This document shows positions 58,204-64,000 of a stretch of 64,000 nt of DNA, one piece after another. Position 1 is the stretch's first letter, and the number at the start of each line of letters is the position of its first letter. Source of the stretch: Halalkalibacter oceani. GTDB taxonomy: Bacteria; Bacillota; Bacilli; Bacillales; Bacillaceae_D. The DNA lies in contig NZ_JAMBOL010000002.1 of NCBI RefSeq assembly GCF_023715605.1, positions 248,001-312,000 on the forward strand. The letters run 5' to 3'. Made by a program: the position numbers and the translations under genes. Under the pieces are notes generated by a model. That model searched no databases and was not told the DNA's origin. It saw nothing but the letters and a program-made list of their open reading frames with translations.

Positions 58204-58217
58204 CGAATGAATGTTCG
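58204..58217. promoter_or_regulatory. LexA (DinR) box upstream of recA
   Basis: CGAATGAATGTTCG matches the Bacillus consensus CGAACRNRYGTTCG at all but one defined position (T for C at position 5). It lies 10 bp upstream of the recA -35, so LexA binding would block the promoter. Confidence 0.8.
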
Positions 58218-58255: not shown

Positions 58256-58325
58256 AGAAAAGAACAAAACATAGATTCGCTTTTTATGGCTTACCTATAT
58301 ATTTTAATGATTAGGAGAGATGGAA

Positions 58326-59375
58326 ATGAGTGATCGTAAAGCAGCTCTTGATATGGCATTGCGCCAGATCGAAAAACAATTTGGGAAAGGTTCGATTATG
58401 AAGCTCGGCGAACAGACGGACCAGCGCGTTTCGACGGTCTCCAGCGGCGCGCTCGCGCTTGACATTGCCCTCGGAGTGGGCGGTTATCCGAAAGGCCGGG
58501 TTATTGAGGTATATGGTCCTGAATCATCCGGTAAAACGACGGTCGCCCTTCACGCGATTGCCGAAATCCAGCGTCAGGGAGGCCAGGCGGCTTTTATTGA
58601 TGCCGAGCATGCTCTCGACCCGGTTTACGCGCAGAAGCTGGGCGTAAACATTGACGAGTTGCTGCTGTCCCAGCCGGATACGGGGGAACAGGCGCTTGAA
58701 ATCGCCGAGGCACTCGTGCGCAGTGGCGCCGTCGATATGATCGTAATCGACAGTGTGGCCGCCCTTGTACCGAAAGCGGAAATTGAAGGCGACATGGGGG
58801 ACAGCCACGTCGGTTTGCAGGCCCGTCTGATGTCCCAGGCGCTGCGGAAGCTGTCCGGAGCGATCAACAAATCAAAGACGATTGCGATCTTTATTAACCA
58901 GATTCGTGAGAAGGTCGGCGTCATGTTCGGAAATCCGGAAACGACTCCGGGCGGACGTGCGCTGAAGTTCTATTCCTCTGTCCGGCTTGAAGTGCGCCGT
59001 GCTGAAACGCTAAAGCAAGGCAACGATATGGTCGGAAACAAAACGAGAATTAAGGTCGTCAAAAACAAAGTAGCTCCTCCTTTCAAACAGGCGGAAGTTG
59101 ACATTATGTATGGAGAAGGCATTTCGCGCGAAGGTTCGATTTTAGATATCGCCTCTGAGCTTGATATTGTGCAAAAGAGCGGAGCATGGTACTCTTTTAA
59201 CGAAGAACGACTTGGACAAGGGCGGGAAAATGCAAAGCAGTTCCTGAAGGAAAATGAAGCGATTATGGAAGAAATCGAAACATTAATTCGAGATCACTAC
59301 GGCCTGAATGAAGAGATTACAGTGGAGCCTGCCAGCGCAGAAGCTCCGGAGGAAATCCCATTTGATTTGAAATAG
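58326..59375 (+). CDS. recA: Recombinase RecA
   Basis: RecA drives homologous recombination and the SOS response. The 349-residue product is nearly colinear with B. subtilis RecA: Walker [11 protein letters not shown], the [10 protein letters not shown] and [21 protein letters not shown] segments, and an acidic C-terminal tail. The ATG at 58326 is favoured by TAGGAGAG (58312-58319) over the ATG at 58320. It has its own LexA-controlled promoter and is isolated by hairpins from the flanking genes. Confidence 0.98.
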
Positions 59376-59607
59376 GCTTGATGGGCGCTGGAAATCTGTC
59401 AATCTACTAACAGGACGTTCCGGTAACCGACGGAACAAGAGCCGGTCAGTAACGGGGAGGAAGGTGTGTGTACAACTCCTTTCTTCCCTTTTGACGCACG
59501 TCTAAAAGCGGCGGGTAAAATCTGCAAAGCGAGCAGGGAACGGATTTCCTTTCTGCTCGCTTTGCCGTTTAGATTACGAAGGGCGTATCCGACAATGGAG
59601 GCGTAAA
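59376..59607. other. Intergenic region recA to SbcD-like gene
   Basis: These 232 bases hold a hairpin (59524-59565) related to the one after rseP and a weaker GTGTGT.../...ACGCAC inverted repeat around 59464-59499. I see no LexA box and no convincing vegetative promoter, so the control of the downstream nuclease genes is unclear. Confidence 0.5.
59524..59565. repeat. Hairpin upstream of SbcD-like gene
   Basis: GCAAAGCGAGCAG (59524-59536) pairs exactly with CTGCTCGCTTTGC (59553-59565). The core AAAGYGAGCAGG is shared with 17317-17356. Confidence 0.6.
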
Positions 59608-60597
59608 ATGAAATTTTTATATGTAACCGATACTCATATTCGCGGCACGACGCCGAAAAACCGGCTTGATGTGTATGTCGAGACGTTGAAAGCGAAGCTC
59701 GAAGAAGTCGTTGGGCTGGCGAATCGCGAACAGGTTGATGTCCTGCTCCATGGCGGCGATGTCTTTGACCGTCCCGATTTGGCGCCAAATGTCGTCGGCC
59801 AGTTTGCCAAGATTTTTATGAAGGCGGCGATGCCAACCTATGTCGTAGCTGGAAATCATGACACGTTCGGCCATAATCCCGAAACGATTTCGCGGACGAT
59901 GCTCGGCTTAATGGATTCCTTCGGCGTGATGAAAATTATTCATCCCGGTCAGCCGGTTCTGGTTGAGAAAAACGGGGTGAAAGTTCAGATTAGCGGCCAG
60001 CCTTATCATTATGATCTCGACCAGCGCGATCCAAAGCTGGATTATTACCCTGTTAATGAAACAGAGGCGGATATTCTCGTTCACATCGTCCATAGTATGC
60101 TTGTTGAAAAGGCGTTGCCTGAAGGCATTCCGCATACGCTGATCGACCATATTTGGGGAACGACGGCCGATATTATTTTGACCGGACATTTTCACGGCGG
60201 CTTTGGAATCAAGGAGCGAAACGGGAAGTATATGTGCAATCCGGGCGCTCTGTCGCGGGTTAACAACCACTGGACCGAAATCAGCCGAATGCCGAAGGTC
60301 GTGCTCGGAACGATTTCAAAGGAAGGCATTTCGCTTGAAGAACGCGAGGTGACGGTCGCCCAAAAAGGAGAAGAGGTGCTTGACCGCTCGTTTCTGGAAA
60401 AGGCGGTCCATCAGGAAGAACGGCTGCACAGCTTTGTCCAGCAGGTGAAGGAAAGCTCGCAGTTTCAAACGCTGAATATGAGCGCGATTATTCAGGATAT
60501 CGCTTCGCTTAAGAACGTCGATGAGAAGGTGAAGCAGGAGGCGCTGCGAAGAATGACAAAGGTAGAAGAAGGATGGAAGGACGGGGAATATGGCTAA
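59608..60597 (+). CDS. SbcD/Mre11-like metallophosphoesterase nuclease
   Basis: The 329-residue product has the five phosphoesterase motifs of Mre11/SbcD nucleases: DTHIRG (about 8), GGDVFDRPD (about 49), GNHDTFGH (about 81), HIVHS, and GHFHGG (about 194). The C-terminus (about 235-325) has helical, charged segments suited to contacting an ATPase partner. It overlaps the following Rad50-like gene by 8 nt. It probably acts as the nuclease subunit of a DNA end-processing complex. It is too diverged for me to call it sbcD itself. Confidence 0.85.
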   Translation: MKFLYVTDTHIRGTTPKNRLDVYVETLKAKLEEVVGLANREQVDVLLHGGDVFDRPDLAPNVVGQFAKIFMKAAMPTYVVAGNHDTFGHNPETISRTMLGLMDSFGVMKIIHPGQPVLVEKNGVKVQISGQPYHYDLDQRDPKLDYYPVNETEADILVHIVHSMLVEKALPEGIPHTLIDHIWGTTADIILTGHFHGGFGIKERNGKYMCNPGALSRVNNHWTEISRMPKVVLGTISKEGISLEEREVTVAQKGEEVLDRSFLEKAVHQEERLHSFVQQVKESSQFQTLNMSAIIQDIASLKNVDEKVKQEALRRMTKVEEGWKDGEYG

Positions 60598-62017
60598 TAT
60601 TCACTCAGTACGTCTGGAAAATTTTCAGTCGCATTTAGACACATATCTCGAATTTGATGCTGGACTGAACGTCCTTGTCGGCCAGTCGGACAGCGGGAAA
60701 ACGGCGATTCTTAGAGGAATCCGCTGGGCGCTGTACAATCAGCCGCGCGGGAGCGACTTTATCCGCGTCGGCGCTGATTTTGTCCGGGTAACCGTCAGCT
60801 TTGATCATGGCACAACAATCATCCGCGAAAGAACATCATCGAAAAACCGCTATACAATTCAAAAAAACGGTGAGGAAGACTTGATCCTCGAAGGGTTTGG
60901 CATCCACGTTCCTGAGGAGGTGCTCGAAGCGCACGGAATGGGAGCGATGCGGATTGACCACGACCATGAACTGATGCTTCATCTGTCTCAGCAATTAGAT
61001 GGGCCCTTTTTGCTTGAACAGACCAATACCGTTCGGGCGAAAGCGCTTGGGCGGATCAGCGGCGCCCACTTTCTCGACATGGCGATTCGCGATACATCAA
61101 AGGACCTTGCCCAGCTGAGGCAGCAGTTGAAGCAGGAGGAGCAGCTGATCGAAAAGCTGGAGGGGGAGCTTGAACCGTATCAGTCGCTCCCGGCCATGAA
61201 AGAACGGCTCGATCAAACAGAACAAGGGGTGCAAACGATCAAAGCAAAGCTGCAAAAAAAAGAGCAGCTTGAACAGTTGCGTCAGCAGCAGCAGCGGCTT
61301 CAGCTTGAACAGGAAACGATCTCCAAGCGTCTCGAGCTTGTCAAGCCGGCCGACCAGTGGCAGCAGGCATGGCAAATGCTTTCAGGTTCACGTCAGCAGC
61401 TTGTCCAGTTTCAGCATTTGCAGGCAAGATGGGAGGAGGTGCGCAAAGCGAGTGAAGTTTGCCGCCTCTGGATCGAGAAGACAGCGGAGGTCCGGCAGGC
61501 CGGCGAGAAGCACAGCATTGTGCTCGCTCAGGTCGAGCGCCTTCATTCACTGAAAAAAATCGCTCAGCTTTTTCAGCGCCTGCGGCAGGAAGAAGAGCAG
61601 GCGTTGAGGAAAATAAAGCAAACGGCGTTCAGCAGCGAGGTTGACGAGGCGACAATGGAGCGCATCGCCGGCAGGCAGCAGCGGCTCGCTCAGCTGCAAA
61701 GGTTGAGGCAGCAGGTTACGGCCTATGAGATGCAGCAGAAGAAGCTGACAGAGCTGCTTGATACGCTGCCGCAGCTTGATAGCATGATTGAAAGACAGGC
61801 GGCGATCGCCGAATGGCACACAAAGCTTGAACAGCTAAAGCAGCTGCATGGGCGACTGAAAGAATGCAGTGAACGGATTAAGGAAGGGCGGCGTTTTATT
61901 GCTTCGCAGCAGGCCGAAGAGGAACAGGCTGAGGAACGCTGGCGCCAGCGTTTGCTTGAGATCGGGACATGCCCTACTTGCGGACAGTCGATCTGTGGCC
62001 ATACGAAATCAGAATAA
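60590..62017 (+). CDS. Rad50/SbcC-like ATPase, N-terminal half ending at a zinc hook
   Basis: The 475-residue protein begins with a SMC/Rad50 N-lobe: RLENFQSHLDTYLEF and Walker A VGQSDSGKTAIL at about 32-43, then a Q-loop-like LHLSQQLDGPF. From about 165 to 455 it is a long Gln/Glu/Leu-rich coiled coil. It ends with CPTCGQSICGH, a CxxC zinc-hook-like motif, just 15 residues before the stop. There is no Walker B or signature motif, so it is only half an ABC ATPase; the other half is probably encoded at 62271-62936. Confidence 0.85.
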   Translation: MANIHSVRLENFQSHLDTYLEFDAGLNVLVGQSDSGKTAILRGIRWALYNQPRGSDFIRVGADFVRVTVSFDHGTTIIRERTSSKNRYTIQKNGEEDLILEGFGIHVPEEVLEAHGMGAMRIDHDHELMLHLSQQLDGPFLLEQTNTVRAKALGRISGAHFLDMAIRDTSKDLAQLRQQLKQEEQLIEKLEGELEPYQSLPAMKERLDQTEQGVQTIKAKLQKKEQLEQLRQQQQRLQLEQETISKRLELVKPADQWQQAWQMLSGSRQQLVQFQHLQARWEEVRKASEVCRLWIEKTAEVRQAGEKHSIVLAQVERLHSLKKIAQLFQRLRQEEEQALRKIKQTAFSSEVDEATMERIAGRQQRLAQLQRLRQQVTAYEMQQKKLTELLDTLPQLDSMIERQAAIAEWHTKLEQLKQLHGRLKECSERIKEGRRFIASQQAEEEQAEERWRQRLLEIGTCPTCGQSICGHTKSE

Positions 62018-62029
62018 GAGGGTGATTGT

Positions 62030-62278
62030 ATGACAATCGAACAACAGCTCGCACAAATGAAAAAAGCGATCGATAAGGCGCGCGATATGCGGTATCGGGC
62101 CGAAGCGAAGCTGGAAGAGCTGGAAAATCAGAAAAGCCGTCTTTTGGCTGAGCTGGAGGAGCTGGGAGTGAAGCCGGAGGAACTGGAACAGGAGATTCAG
62201 CGGCTGGAGCAGGAAATAGACAGATCGCTAGCTGAGACATGGGAGCTGATTCCAAAGGAATTGGTTGAACATGAGTGA
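62030..62278 (+). CDS. 82-residue coiled-coil protein within the split SbcC locus
   Basis: The product is almost entirely heptad-like coiled coil (QQLAQMKKAIDKARDMRYRAE, EELEQEIQRLEQEIDRSLAE, each read as separate helices) with no other motif. It starts 12 nt after the N-half gene with AGAGGGTGA as RBS, and its last codons overlap the next gene. It could supply part of the returning coil of a Rad50-like arm or be an accessory clamp. I recognise no family. Confidence 0.75.
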   Translation: MTIEQQLAQMKKAIDKARDMRYRAEAKLEELENQKSRLLAELEELGVKPEELEQEIQRLEQEIDRSLAETWELIPKELVEHE

Positions 62279-62936
62279 GCTTGCAGCACGTCTTGCGAGG
62301 CTTGAGCAGCGGCAGAAGAAGGCGTACGACCAGTGGACGAGGCTTGATGCTGAGCGCGCCTTGCTGGAAGAGCAAATCAAAGCGAGACGGAAGGAACTCG
62401 ATGGCTATCTGGACACGATCGATACATATGAAAAAGCGCGCGTGCTGTTGCAGCAGTCGGCCGAGTATGCGAGAGAGCAGGCCAAACAGCAGATTGAGAC
62501 GCTGGTGACGAACGCGCTCCAATATGTGTTTGGTCCGCTTTTTTCCTTTCAAATTGAATTGGAAGAACACGGGAGCAAGGCGGTAGCTGAATTTTACGTT
62601 GTCTCGGAATATGAAGGGGTCAAGGTGAAAACGAGGCCGCAGGATTCCCGCGGCGGCGGTGTCGTCGATATCGTGACGCTCGCTTTACGCGTCGCTTTGC
62701 TTGAAACGGTCCAGCCGAAACGGTCAGGGTCTCTTTTGCTCGATGAGCCGGGCAAGCATGTTTCGGGTGAATATGTCCTTTATTTATATGAATTCTTAAA
62801 ATCATTAAGCACGATGTTTAAGCGGCAGATTATCATGATTACGCATAACTACCACCTCGCCCAGTCCGGTGACAAAGCGTACGAGGTTGCGATTCATGAC
62901 GGAATCAGCGCAGTCACTGAAATTGACAACACTTGA
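62271..62936 (+). CDS. Rad50/SbcC-like ATPase, C-terminal half
   Basis: The 221-residue protein has a coiled coil (about 1-75), then the ABC C-lobe: a signature-like SRGGGVVDIVTLALRVALLE (about 123-142), Walker B LLLDEPGKHVSG (about 152-163) and an H-loop MITHN (about 190). It has no Walker A, so it complements the N-half at 60590-62017. The ATG at 62271 overlaps the upstream small gene by 8 nt; a TTG at 62265 is an alternative. The vegetative promoter of rny overlaps its stop codon. Confidence 0.85.
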   Translation: MSELAARLARLEQRQKKAYDQWTRLDAERALLEEQIKARRKELDGYLDTIDTYEKARVLLQQSAEYAREQAKQQIETLVTNALQYVFGPLFSFQIELEEHGSKAVAEFYVVSEYEGVKVKTRPQDSRGGGVVDIVTLALRVALLETVQPKRSGSLLLDEPGKHVSGEYVLYLYEFLKSLSTMFKRQIIMITHNYHLAQSGDKAYEVAIHDGISAVTEIDNT

Positions 62937-62961
62937 CATTGGACAGGGTGGGCTATAAAAT
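62933..62961 (+). promoter_or_regulatory. Promoter of rny
   Basis: A perfect TTGACA (62933-62938) and TAAAAT (62956-62961; 5 of 6) are 17 bp apart. The -35 overlaps the TGA stop of the preceding gene. The rny leader would be about 130 nt. Confidence 0.75.
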
Positions 62962-63098: not shown

Positions 63099-64000
63099 AT
63101 GGATTATATATGGCTCATCTCCATTTTGCTTGTTGTCTCTGCAGGTAGTGCAGTTGTTGGATATCTTGTTCGAAAATCCATTGCTGAAGCAAAGATTTCC
63201 AGTGCGGAACATGCAGCAAAACAAATTGTTGATGATGCGAAGCGAGATGCCGAGGCGAGTAAGAAGGAAGCGCTCTTAGAAATCAAGGATGAGGCGCACC
63301 GTGCTCGAACTGAAGCAGAACGTGAGGTTCGTGAACGAAGAAATGAGATTCAAAAACAAGAGAATCGTTTGGTACAAAAAGAAGAGATTCTTGACCGGAA
63401 GAGTGAAACCTTAGATAAGAAAGAAGAGTCTTTGGAAAAAAGGGAGGAATCTCTCACCAAAAAACAACGACAAATTGAAGAGATGAATAGCAAAGTGGAG
63501 GAAATCTTGGCCAAGCAGCAAGCCGAGCTTGAGCGTATTTCCGGATTTTCTCGCGAAGAAGCACGTACCGCGATTCGTCACGAAGTGGAACAGGAGCTTG
63601 CGCACGAAACGGCTTTGCTTGTGAAGGAACGGTTCACACAGGCGAAGGAAGAAGCTGATAAAAAGGCGAAAGAAATTCTGTCACTGGCCATTCAACGCTG
63701 TTCGGCCGACCATGTCGCTGAAACGACTGTATCGGTCGTCACATTGCCGAATGATGAAATGAAGGGCCGGATTATTGGACGGGAAGGAAGAAATATTCGT
63801 GCGTTGGAAACATTGACGGGAATTGATCTTATTATCGATGATACGCCGGAAGCTGTTATTTTATCCGGGTTTGATCCGATTCGCCGTGAAATTGCCCGTA
63901 CAGCTCTTGAAAAACTCGTGCAGGATGGTCGGATTCATCCGGCCCGAATTGAAGAAATGGTCGATAAATCACGTCGTGAGGTCGATGAGGCGATTCGTGA
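63099..64000 (+). CDS. rny: Ribonuclease Y (3' end beyond the window)
   Basis: RNase Y is the membrane-anchored endoribonuclease that starts mRNA decay in Bacillus. The frame opens at the ATG at 63099 behind AAGGGGAGG and is still open at base 64000. Visible parts are the N-terminal membrane helix (about 3-23), a long coiled coil (about 30-200) and the KH domain ([21 protein letters not shown], read as [15 protein letters not shown]). The catalytic HD domain lies outside. RNase Y and RNase J2, the other ribonuclease in this window, act in the same RNA-decay system. Confidence 0.97.

Follow-up and report, generated by a model that had tools for sequence, protein, structure and literature searches.

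A predicted Mre11–Rad50-like complex with a split Rad50 chain and a small coiled-coil subunit, encoded beside recA in Halalkalibacter and other Firmicutes

To our knowledge, the layout of Mre11–Rad50 complexes is regarded as universal: Rad50 has two lobes, one arm, and a zinc hook in the middle of the chain. Here, we analyzed a 64,000-nucleotide stretch of a Halalkalibacter oceani genome (contig NZ_JAMBOL010000002.1; “the window” below), in which four genes next to recA encode an Mre11-like nuclease subunit (MRE), two separate halves of a Rad50-like ATPase, and a small coiled-coil protein. We consider it very probable that these genes specify a cellular, vertically kept Mre11–Rad50 complex for DNA-end processing in which Rad50 consists of two polypeptides.

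In archaea, Mre11–Rad50 and HerA–NurA are described as a DNA-end resection set (PMC2288612; PMC9960219), and according to the latter source, bacterial NurA–HerA is confined to few bacteria, e.g., Deinococcus-Thermus. Yoshida et al. 2011 (PMC3175470) described plasmid, firmicute, and Bacillus phage proteins in which Mre11 is fused to Rad50; in the fusions from Anaerostipes and the Bacillus phage, they did not detect one of the P-loop NTPase segments. A search of the full-text literature, outside which most subscription journals lay, returned no title or abstract start describing a split Rad50 or split SbcC. This agrees with an earlier note on this DNA, made from its letters, which knew of no described system with this arrangement and read the locus as a split Mre11–Rad50-like complex next to recA. 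The results presented below support that reading.

Four genes encode an Mre11-like nuclease and a Rad50 in two chains

Rechecking of the open reading frame (ORF) coordinates placed all four ORFs at the positions claimed earlier, on the forward strand between recA and rny. They encode MRE (59608..60597; 329 residues), the Rad50 N-half with the Walker A lobe, arm, and chain-terminal zinc hook (60590..62017; 475 residues), the small coiled-coil subunit (62030..62278; 82 residues), and the Rad50 C-half with the arm-root helix, signature, Walker B, and H-loop (62271..62936; 221 residues, ATG at 62271). The genes had been described as four overlapping ones; MRE and the N-half overlap by 8 nt, as do the small gene and the C-half, but 12 nt separate the N-half from the small gene. 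The surrounding genome measures 4.47 Mb, with a completeness of 99.95%.

MRE carries a Pfam Metallophos domain (1.2e-13), and a search with its profile (A3) found MRE11 structures, the best at 2.2e-8. The residues that make up the Mre11 active site, here D8, H10, D51, N83, H84, H159, H162, H194, and H196, are conserved in 26–27 of 27 alignment rows. MRE is, as judged from sequence, a metallophosphoesterase with the active-site residues of Mre11 and a putative nuclease, which bears out its earlier description as SbcD-like.

The N-half matches Pfam AAA_23 (2.7e-18) and PHROG 16465 (8.4e-67), and its profile (A4) matches the Rad50 structure 3qku_A (5.2e-12). Residues 4–94 align to positions 3–101 of model NF003034, the Rad50 N terminus, and this archaeal Rad50 model scores 62.8 bits vs 14.2 bits for the SbcC model TIGR00618. 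The sequence contains a Walker A motif (GQSDSGKT, residues 31–38; 60680..60703), with G31, G36, and K37 present in 34 of 34 rows, and a CPTC zinc hook (residues 461–464; 61970..61981) that lies 11 residues before the chain end. Both features had been noted earlier. C461 and C464 are found in all 34 rows, and a CxxC near the C terminus occurs in 79/79 N-half ORFs from viral contigs and further genomes. Two Rad50 hook chains, 6zff (7e-5) and 1l8d (1.8e-4), are weak matches to the end of the N-half profile.

The C-half aligns to positions 800–894 of the 895 in model NF002244, i.e., the Rad50 C terminus, and also matches the Rad50 chain 3qkr_B. Its AlphaFold model superposes on Rad50 and begins with a single helix of 86 residues (residues 2–87; 62274..62531, from the secondary structure of the model), slightly longer than the coil of about 75 residues expected earlier. 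The signature, Walker B, and H-loop assigned to this protein by the earlier note were all located, although the signature position reads GGG (residues 128–130; 62652..62660, from the HMMER alignment to 3qkr_B) instead of the SGG of Rad50. G128 is conserved in 42 of 43 C-half rows, the remaining row having alanine (AGG), and the serine signature (SGG) of the Mre11–Rad50 superfamily occurs in none of the 43. D158 and E159 of Walker B (LLLDE, residues 155–159; 62733..62747) and H192 of the H-loop (62844..62846) are present in 43/43 rows.

According to the profiles and the AlphaFold model of the C-half, the two halves are the two lobes of Rad50. None of the four genes has the one-chain layout with both lobes, the arm strands, and a mid-chain hook. 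By reading, the C-half lacks a Walker A and the N-half lacks the signature and Walker B, and neither could thus do without a partner; together they supply the Walker A, Walker B, and H-loop of a predicted Rad50-type ABC head with its lobes on two chains, of which the C-half was modeled. It is extremely improbable that the C-half belongs to an unrelated ABC ATPase and is only a neighbor of the N-half, given that the top profile and model matches are Rad50 C-lobes and that the motifs are divided between the chains in this way.

Conservation of the split across genera and in the phylum

Each of the 22 named loci, which belong to Bacillaceae and Clostridia, has MRE, the N-half, the small gene, and the C-half (the small gene being recognized by ORF reading only in two of them), and the C-half of the window is most similar to that of H. 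oceani among them (96% identity). The two halves are likewise encoded separately, with the small gene between them, in all 32 further chromosomal loci that were read. The four-gene linkage for which a genome survey had been suggested is thus regular. The chain end was read directly behind the hook in 21 of the 22 named loci and 31 of the 32 further ones. In the two exceptions, L045:3323-4306 (an H. akibai draft) and L165:4394-5700, the N-half frame is broken by mutation or assembly error, and L045 was excluded from alignments.

The order of the two halves is that of a single Rad50 chain, as would be expected if an ordinary sbcC had been broken or frameshifted by mutation or sequencing error. 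This explanation is refuted because the arrangement is conserved across genera: the split and the small gene recur in 22/22 named and 32/32 further chromosomal loci. Purifying selection also speaks against it. In comparison with H. oceani (L043), dN/dS was 0.013 for the small gene, 0.038 for MRE, 0.041 for the C-half, and 0.107 for the N-half; these values come from one pair, synonymous sites being saturated in four more distant pairs. We regard the probability of a broken sbcC as practically nil.

Within the family to which the window's genome belongs, the C-half is present in 41/41 genomes. In a phylum-wide sample, 65 of 398 genomes have a C-half match of at least 97 bits, comprising 62 standalone frames and three frames of 686–702 residues. 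These 65 were tallied by hand from the match list; the search tally at E ≤ 0.001 was 298/398, and the matches below 97 bits that were left out reach at most 40 bits over short ABC stretches, except for a second piece in genome G122 (66.5 bits). Of the carriers, 61 are of chromosomal type, 36 of which were examined as loci (the window's included), whereas the other 25 were assigned from their scores only. Three carriers, G249, G426, and G137, were classed as prophage type and not counted here, and neither was G196, which is cut off.

The arm is built from 47-residue units

The arm of the N-half spans residues ~206–441 (61205..61912) and consists of about five tandem 47-residue repeats, as derived from profile autocorrelation. 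Among 102 N-halves, the distance from Walker A to the hook falls into three classes, 380–392 (n = 16), 422–442 (n = 65), and 473–483 residues (n = 21), with none between; 15 of the 21 long-class members (473 residues) come from closely similar viral contigs. In the middle class, of which 60 rows were left in the profile after thinning, arm autocorrelation was 0.566 at lag 47, whereas 500 shuffles of the columns never exceeded 0.185. At lags 42 and 49, which correspond to whole heptads, the values were negative, and helix breakers cluster at the border of the 47-residue units. The three discrete lengths and the 47-residue period indicate that the arm grows and shrinks by entire units.

A small subunit accompanies the split

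A profile of the 82-residue protein, which matches PHROG 18563 (3.9e-7), detected relatives (E ≤ 1e-6) in 61 of the 398 phylum genomes, all of them among the 62 with a standalone C-half, and in 0/336 others. In the one genome with a standalone C-half but no small gene, G196, the C-half lies at the end of a 4-kb contig. The profile search did not find the gene in the three genomes with 686–702-residue frames, nor in the other 333 genomes. In the phylum sample, the small protein is thus absent only where the arm and hook are absent or the contig ends. Inspection by eye shows two helical stretches flanking a conserved G-x-x-P turn, and the only relatives in the Protein Data Bank were helical or coiled-coil matches, which were taken for low complexity. 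A chance small ORF is ruled out by the dN/dS of 0.013 and the co-occurrence with the standalone C-half.

In four relatives, identity to the window is 71–84% for the small protein, 73–84% for MRE, 74–83% for the N-half head, 73–86% for the C-half, and 23–36% for the arm. The small protein is conserved like the catalytic parts and missing where the arm and hook are missing, and we therefore place it, provisionally, at the arm root. It is a regular subunit, probably a clasp that would join the two Rad50 chains at or near that root.

The earlier note had contrasted a long N-half coil with a short C-half coil and asked whether the 82-residue protein completes the arm. The asymmetry was confirmed, the C-half helix (86 residues) being much shorter than the N-half arm. 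A serious alternative, though less likely than not, is that the small protein serves as the missing descending arm strand instead of clasping the root; each 47-residue repeat might then be paired with a copy of its own. Its first helical stretch is, by eye, about as long as one repeat, and it is missing from the three genomes in which arm and hook are missing. Yet a protein that is 71–84% identical in the four relatives is unlike a partner of an arm that changes as fast as this one.

Relation to SbcCD and other repair enzymes

It had been suggested to survey the same genomes for sbcCD. In the window's own genome, neither SbcC nor SbcD was found over cut-off, and a search for a YhaN-type ATPase (PF13514) was negative as well. 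Canonical SbcD exceeds the cut-off in 7 of the 41 family genomes, and full or near full-length SbcC matches occur in the same seven; in the other 34, SbcD stays below the cut-off and no SbcC match is full-length. The own cut-off of TIGR00618 was reached by 0/41. Across the phylum, SbcD exceeds the cut-off in 162/398 genomes, divided very unequally between carriers of the split system (2/65) and others (160/333). The status of the 65 carriers was judged from best E-values, with 150 best matches listed, the nearest miss being G258 (1.7e-20). According to the tree, the two SbcD-positive carriers (G426 and G137) hold a prophage-type copy. Families f23, f119, and f21 each include members with the split form as well as members with SbcD. 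The split complex thus appears to replace SbcCD in most carriers.

The window's genome also contains a 1159-residue AddA/RecB-like ORF (L197; G000:C28:78821-82057) that scores 351 bits with addA_Gpos and 247 bits with recB, both under cut-off. Rocha et al. 2005 reported that B. halodurans has RecBCD in place of AddAB.

Gene neighbors and natural fusions

In the window, the four genes are preceded by recA (58320..59375, forward strand) and followed by rny (63099..64000, forward strand, truncated by the window end). RecA is encoded upstream in all 22 named loci, which extends the adjacency already pointed out for the window, and rny lies downstream in 21. Among the 32 further chromosomal loci (L157-L186, L189, L190), recA before and rny after were found in 16, herA upstream in 14 (L167, L168, L173-L175, L177-L180, L182-L184, L186, L189), and neither in two. 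In 13 of the 14 herA loci, herA is preceded by nurA, the exception being L174. Neighbors were scored by phmmer with two pairs, and Pfam HerA and NurA domains were confirmed in the samples scanned. Neither nurA nor herA was found beside the 22 named loci or among the genes that separate recA from rny in the window. The recA/rny context is common to Bacillaceae, Clostridiaceae, and Peptoniphilaceae loci. The presence of herA and nurA ahead of the split genes points to DNA-end resection.

MRE is fused to the N-half on three plasmids (Geobacillus, Paenibacillus, and Aneurinibacillus), and the small gene and C-half then follow. One-chain proteins of MRE, N-lobe, and C-lobe (686–702 residues) are found beside addB-addA in G084, G404, and G340 (L193:5944-8049, reverse strand; L194:4483-6540, forward strand; L195:5950-8046, reverse strand), where addB is over cut-off in both loci scanned and addA in the one scanned. 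No CxxC, arm, or small gene was found in these three cases. Natural fusions of MRE with Rad50 lobes support a single complex.

Anti-phage defense offers another explanation for a Rad50-like gene pair. LmuB of the Lamassu system is SMC/Rad50-like, and the PADLOC LmuB model matches the N-half (7.9e-19) and C-half (6e-7), the latter also matching mad3 (8.2e-10). Such matches may stem merely from the common ABC fold and coil. The LmuA model was not among the PADLOC rows listed for the four proteins (for the N-half, the best 25 of 50), and no effector gene was recognized in the four-gene module. Its presence in 41/41 family genomes, its position next to recA in every named locus and near herA, nurA, or addAB elsewhere, and its occurrence in phages also argue against a defense system, which we consider very unlikely.

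In the intergenic region between recA and MRE, a 13-bp perfect inverted repeat with a loop of 16 (59524-59565) was seen by eye; it has no T-run behind it and is absent from the terminator scan list. Promoter and terminator scans of the window gave counts about equal to those for shuffled sequences. A TTGACA-17-TAAAAT element (11/12 matches; 62933-62961) overlaps the end of the C-half gene ahead of rny. Upstream of recA, CGAATGAATGTTCG (58204-58217) deviates by one mismatch from a search pattern that we take to be of LexA type; three such matches occur in the window, the number expected by chance.

Viral relatives of the module

The possibility of phage-like relatives had been left open and was confirmed: Bacillus phage vB_BboS-125 carries a closely related module, as do a B. 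velezensis plasmid and viral contigs at 56 loci. The small gene was detected by profile in 49 of the 56. In L079, L084, L124, and L125, a small coiled-coil ORF without a profile match directly precedes the C-half; in L115 and L122, the C-half lies near the contig end, and ORF reading of L098 showed no small coiled-coil ORF before the C-half.

These relatives raise the question of whether the window holds a phage or prophage module that is there by chance. Besides the closeness of the viral modules, the C-half tree is poorly supported in its deep branches, and its main viral clade leaves out ten viral rows. In that tree, however, the 17 bacilli rows group together with full support (100/100), separately from the 45 rows of the main viral clade (99/89); the row of G137 is long-branched. 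Gene order differs as well, MRE being first on chromosomes and usually last in viral contigs. With the module present in all 41 family genomes and in a recA/rny context shared with Clostridiaceae and Peptoniphilaceae, a chance passenger is highly unlikely, and vertical descent in the cellular lineage would account for these patterns. Accordingly, the prophage passenger was set aside, as were the frameshift, the unrelated ABC protein, and the defense system.

Several viral loci differ in other ways. L124:954-5492 and L125:1006-5561 encode a RecA-like frame of 655–663 residues, followed by a short CPIC-ending N-half, MRE, a small coiled coil, and the C-half; this RecA-like frame is longer than the 351 residues in the window, perhaps through insertion. 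In vB_BboS-125, an AP2-domain gene, resembling a homing-type insertion, lies between the N-half and the small gene (L001:4116-4688), and the gap at this place is longer in many viral loci. Microcystis phage Mvi-JY20 (L200:2653-5480) has the N-half, MRE, a 94-residue coiled coil without a match to the small-protein profile, and a C-half with a more canonical D-loop (TNLD). The Mvi-JY20 module is a possible outgroup.

Discussion

We propose that the N-half and C-half most likely pair at the arm root to form one ABC head and that two such heads would close upon ATP over an MRE dimer. Zinc would link two arms through the hooks, which lie close to the free ends of the N-halves, and the 82-residue protein probably clasps both Rad50 chains at or near the root. 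The complex would process or clip double-strand ends and hairpins and pass them on to RecA or to a resection motor (HerA–NurA in other lineages), and it would stand in for SbcCD in most carriers.

Several observations weigh against parts of this interpretation. The signature serine is replaced by glycine and the D-loop reads KHVS, so that, judging from these motifs, ATP use may differ from that of Rad50. The matches to Rad50 hook chains are listed among unrelated helical repeats of similar E-value (SHOC-2, 1.4e-5). Covariation of neighboring arm repeats (360 repeat pairs) had no power to tell whether the repeats pack in antiparallel or parallel fashion: the top score for antiparallel packing (0.44) was below the permutation mean (0.48), and the sole parallel signal was repeat homology. 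The backbone of the C-half tree is poorly supported, and the nurA-herA group needs six label changes on it. As to SbcCD, the Fisher p-value for its distribution (7e-14) is too small because exact tests ignore shared ancestry, and SbcCD is also retained in the seven family genomes mentioned above. Long frames with weak SbcC/SbcD-like matches occur at G005:C1:1518371 (1008 residues), G013:C60:32607 (987 residues), and G012:C120:956 (859 residues), and G012 belongs to those seven.

It is nearly an even question whether the genes represent a self-contained third form of Mre11–Rad50. In such a form, the ring would be open by design, the arm modular in 47-residue units, and an ~80-residue clasp, found in sampled genomes only together with the split system, would make or break the join. 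This form would replace SbcCD in about two dozen families of the phylum, including alkaliphilic bacilli, and would have given rise to an armless one-chain version. Findings that go beyond the earlier note are how widely the system occurs, that it tends to take the place of SbcCD, that the small subunit co-occurs with it, that nurA and herA share its operon in some relatives, that arm length is stepped, and that an armless fusion exists.

Here, the chain was cut at the hook and a subunit was gained, and one lineage lost the arm, hook, and subunit together. The purpose of the arm and hook, a long-standing question, becomes testable with natural armed, stepwise longer, and armless versions. Many Firmicutes and their phages carry the split machine, and such bacteria usually lack the standard version; surveys with SbcCD models miss the complex in many of them. 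The split system also brings the archaeal partnership with HerA–NurA into these bacteria.

Comparison with known systems

The split complex shares its subunit folds with archaeal Mre11–Rad50, and herA (14/32) and nurA (13/32) are operon partners in its relatives. It differs in that Rad50 is in two chains, with a small subunit, a hook near the chain end, a GGG signature, and bacterial hosts. Unlike the archaeal nurA-herA operon, the operon of the window and the 22 named loci has recA as its neighbor, and neither nurA nor herA was found close by. With bacterial SbcCD (TIGR00618, TIGR00619), the complex has in common the combination of a nuclease and an ABC ATPase with a zinc hook, whereas it falls below both curated cut-offs and has a split chain, 47-residue arm repeats, and an extra subunit.

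The fusions in the part of PMC3175470 used here resemble the fusion of MRE and N-half with a separate C-half gene (L071, L073, L004, L069, L070), and the split would explain those that lack one P-loop segment. That part does not mention a split-off C-half or a small protein, and the word “split” is absent from its main text.

PHROGs already lists the pieces as individual families (16465, 18563, 15167) that carry different names. Among structures, 1f2t and 1ii8 also have the N and C parts of Rad50 on separate chains, A and B. These two-chain lobes, which we take to have been engineered for crystallography, are without the arm, whereas the natural split described here keeps both arm and hook.

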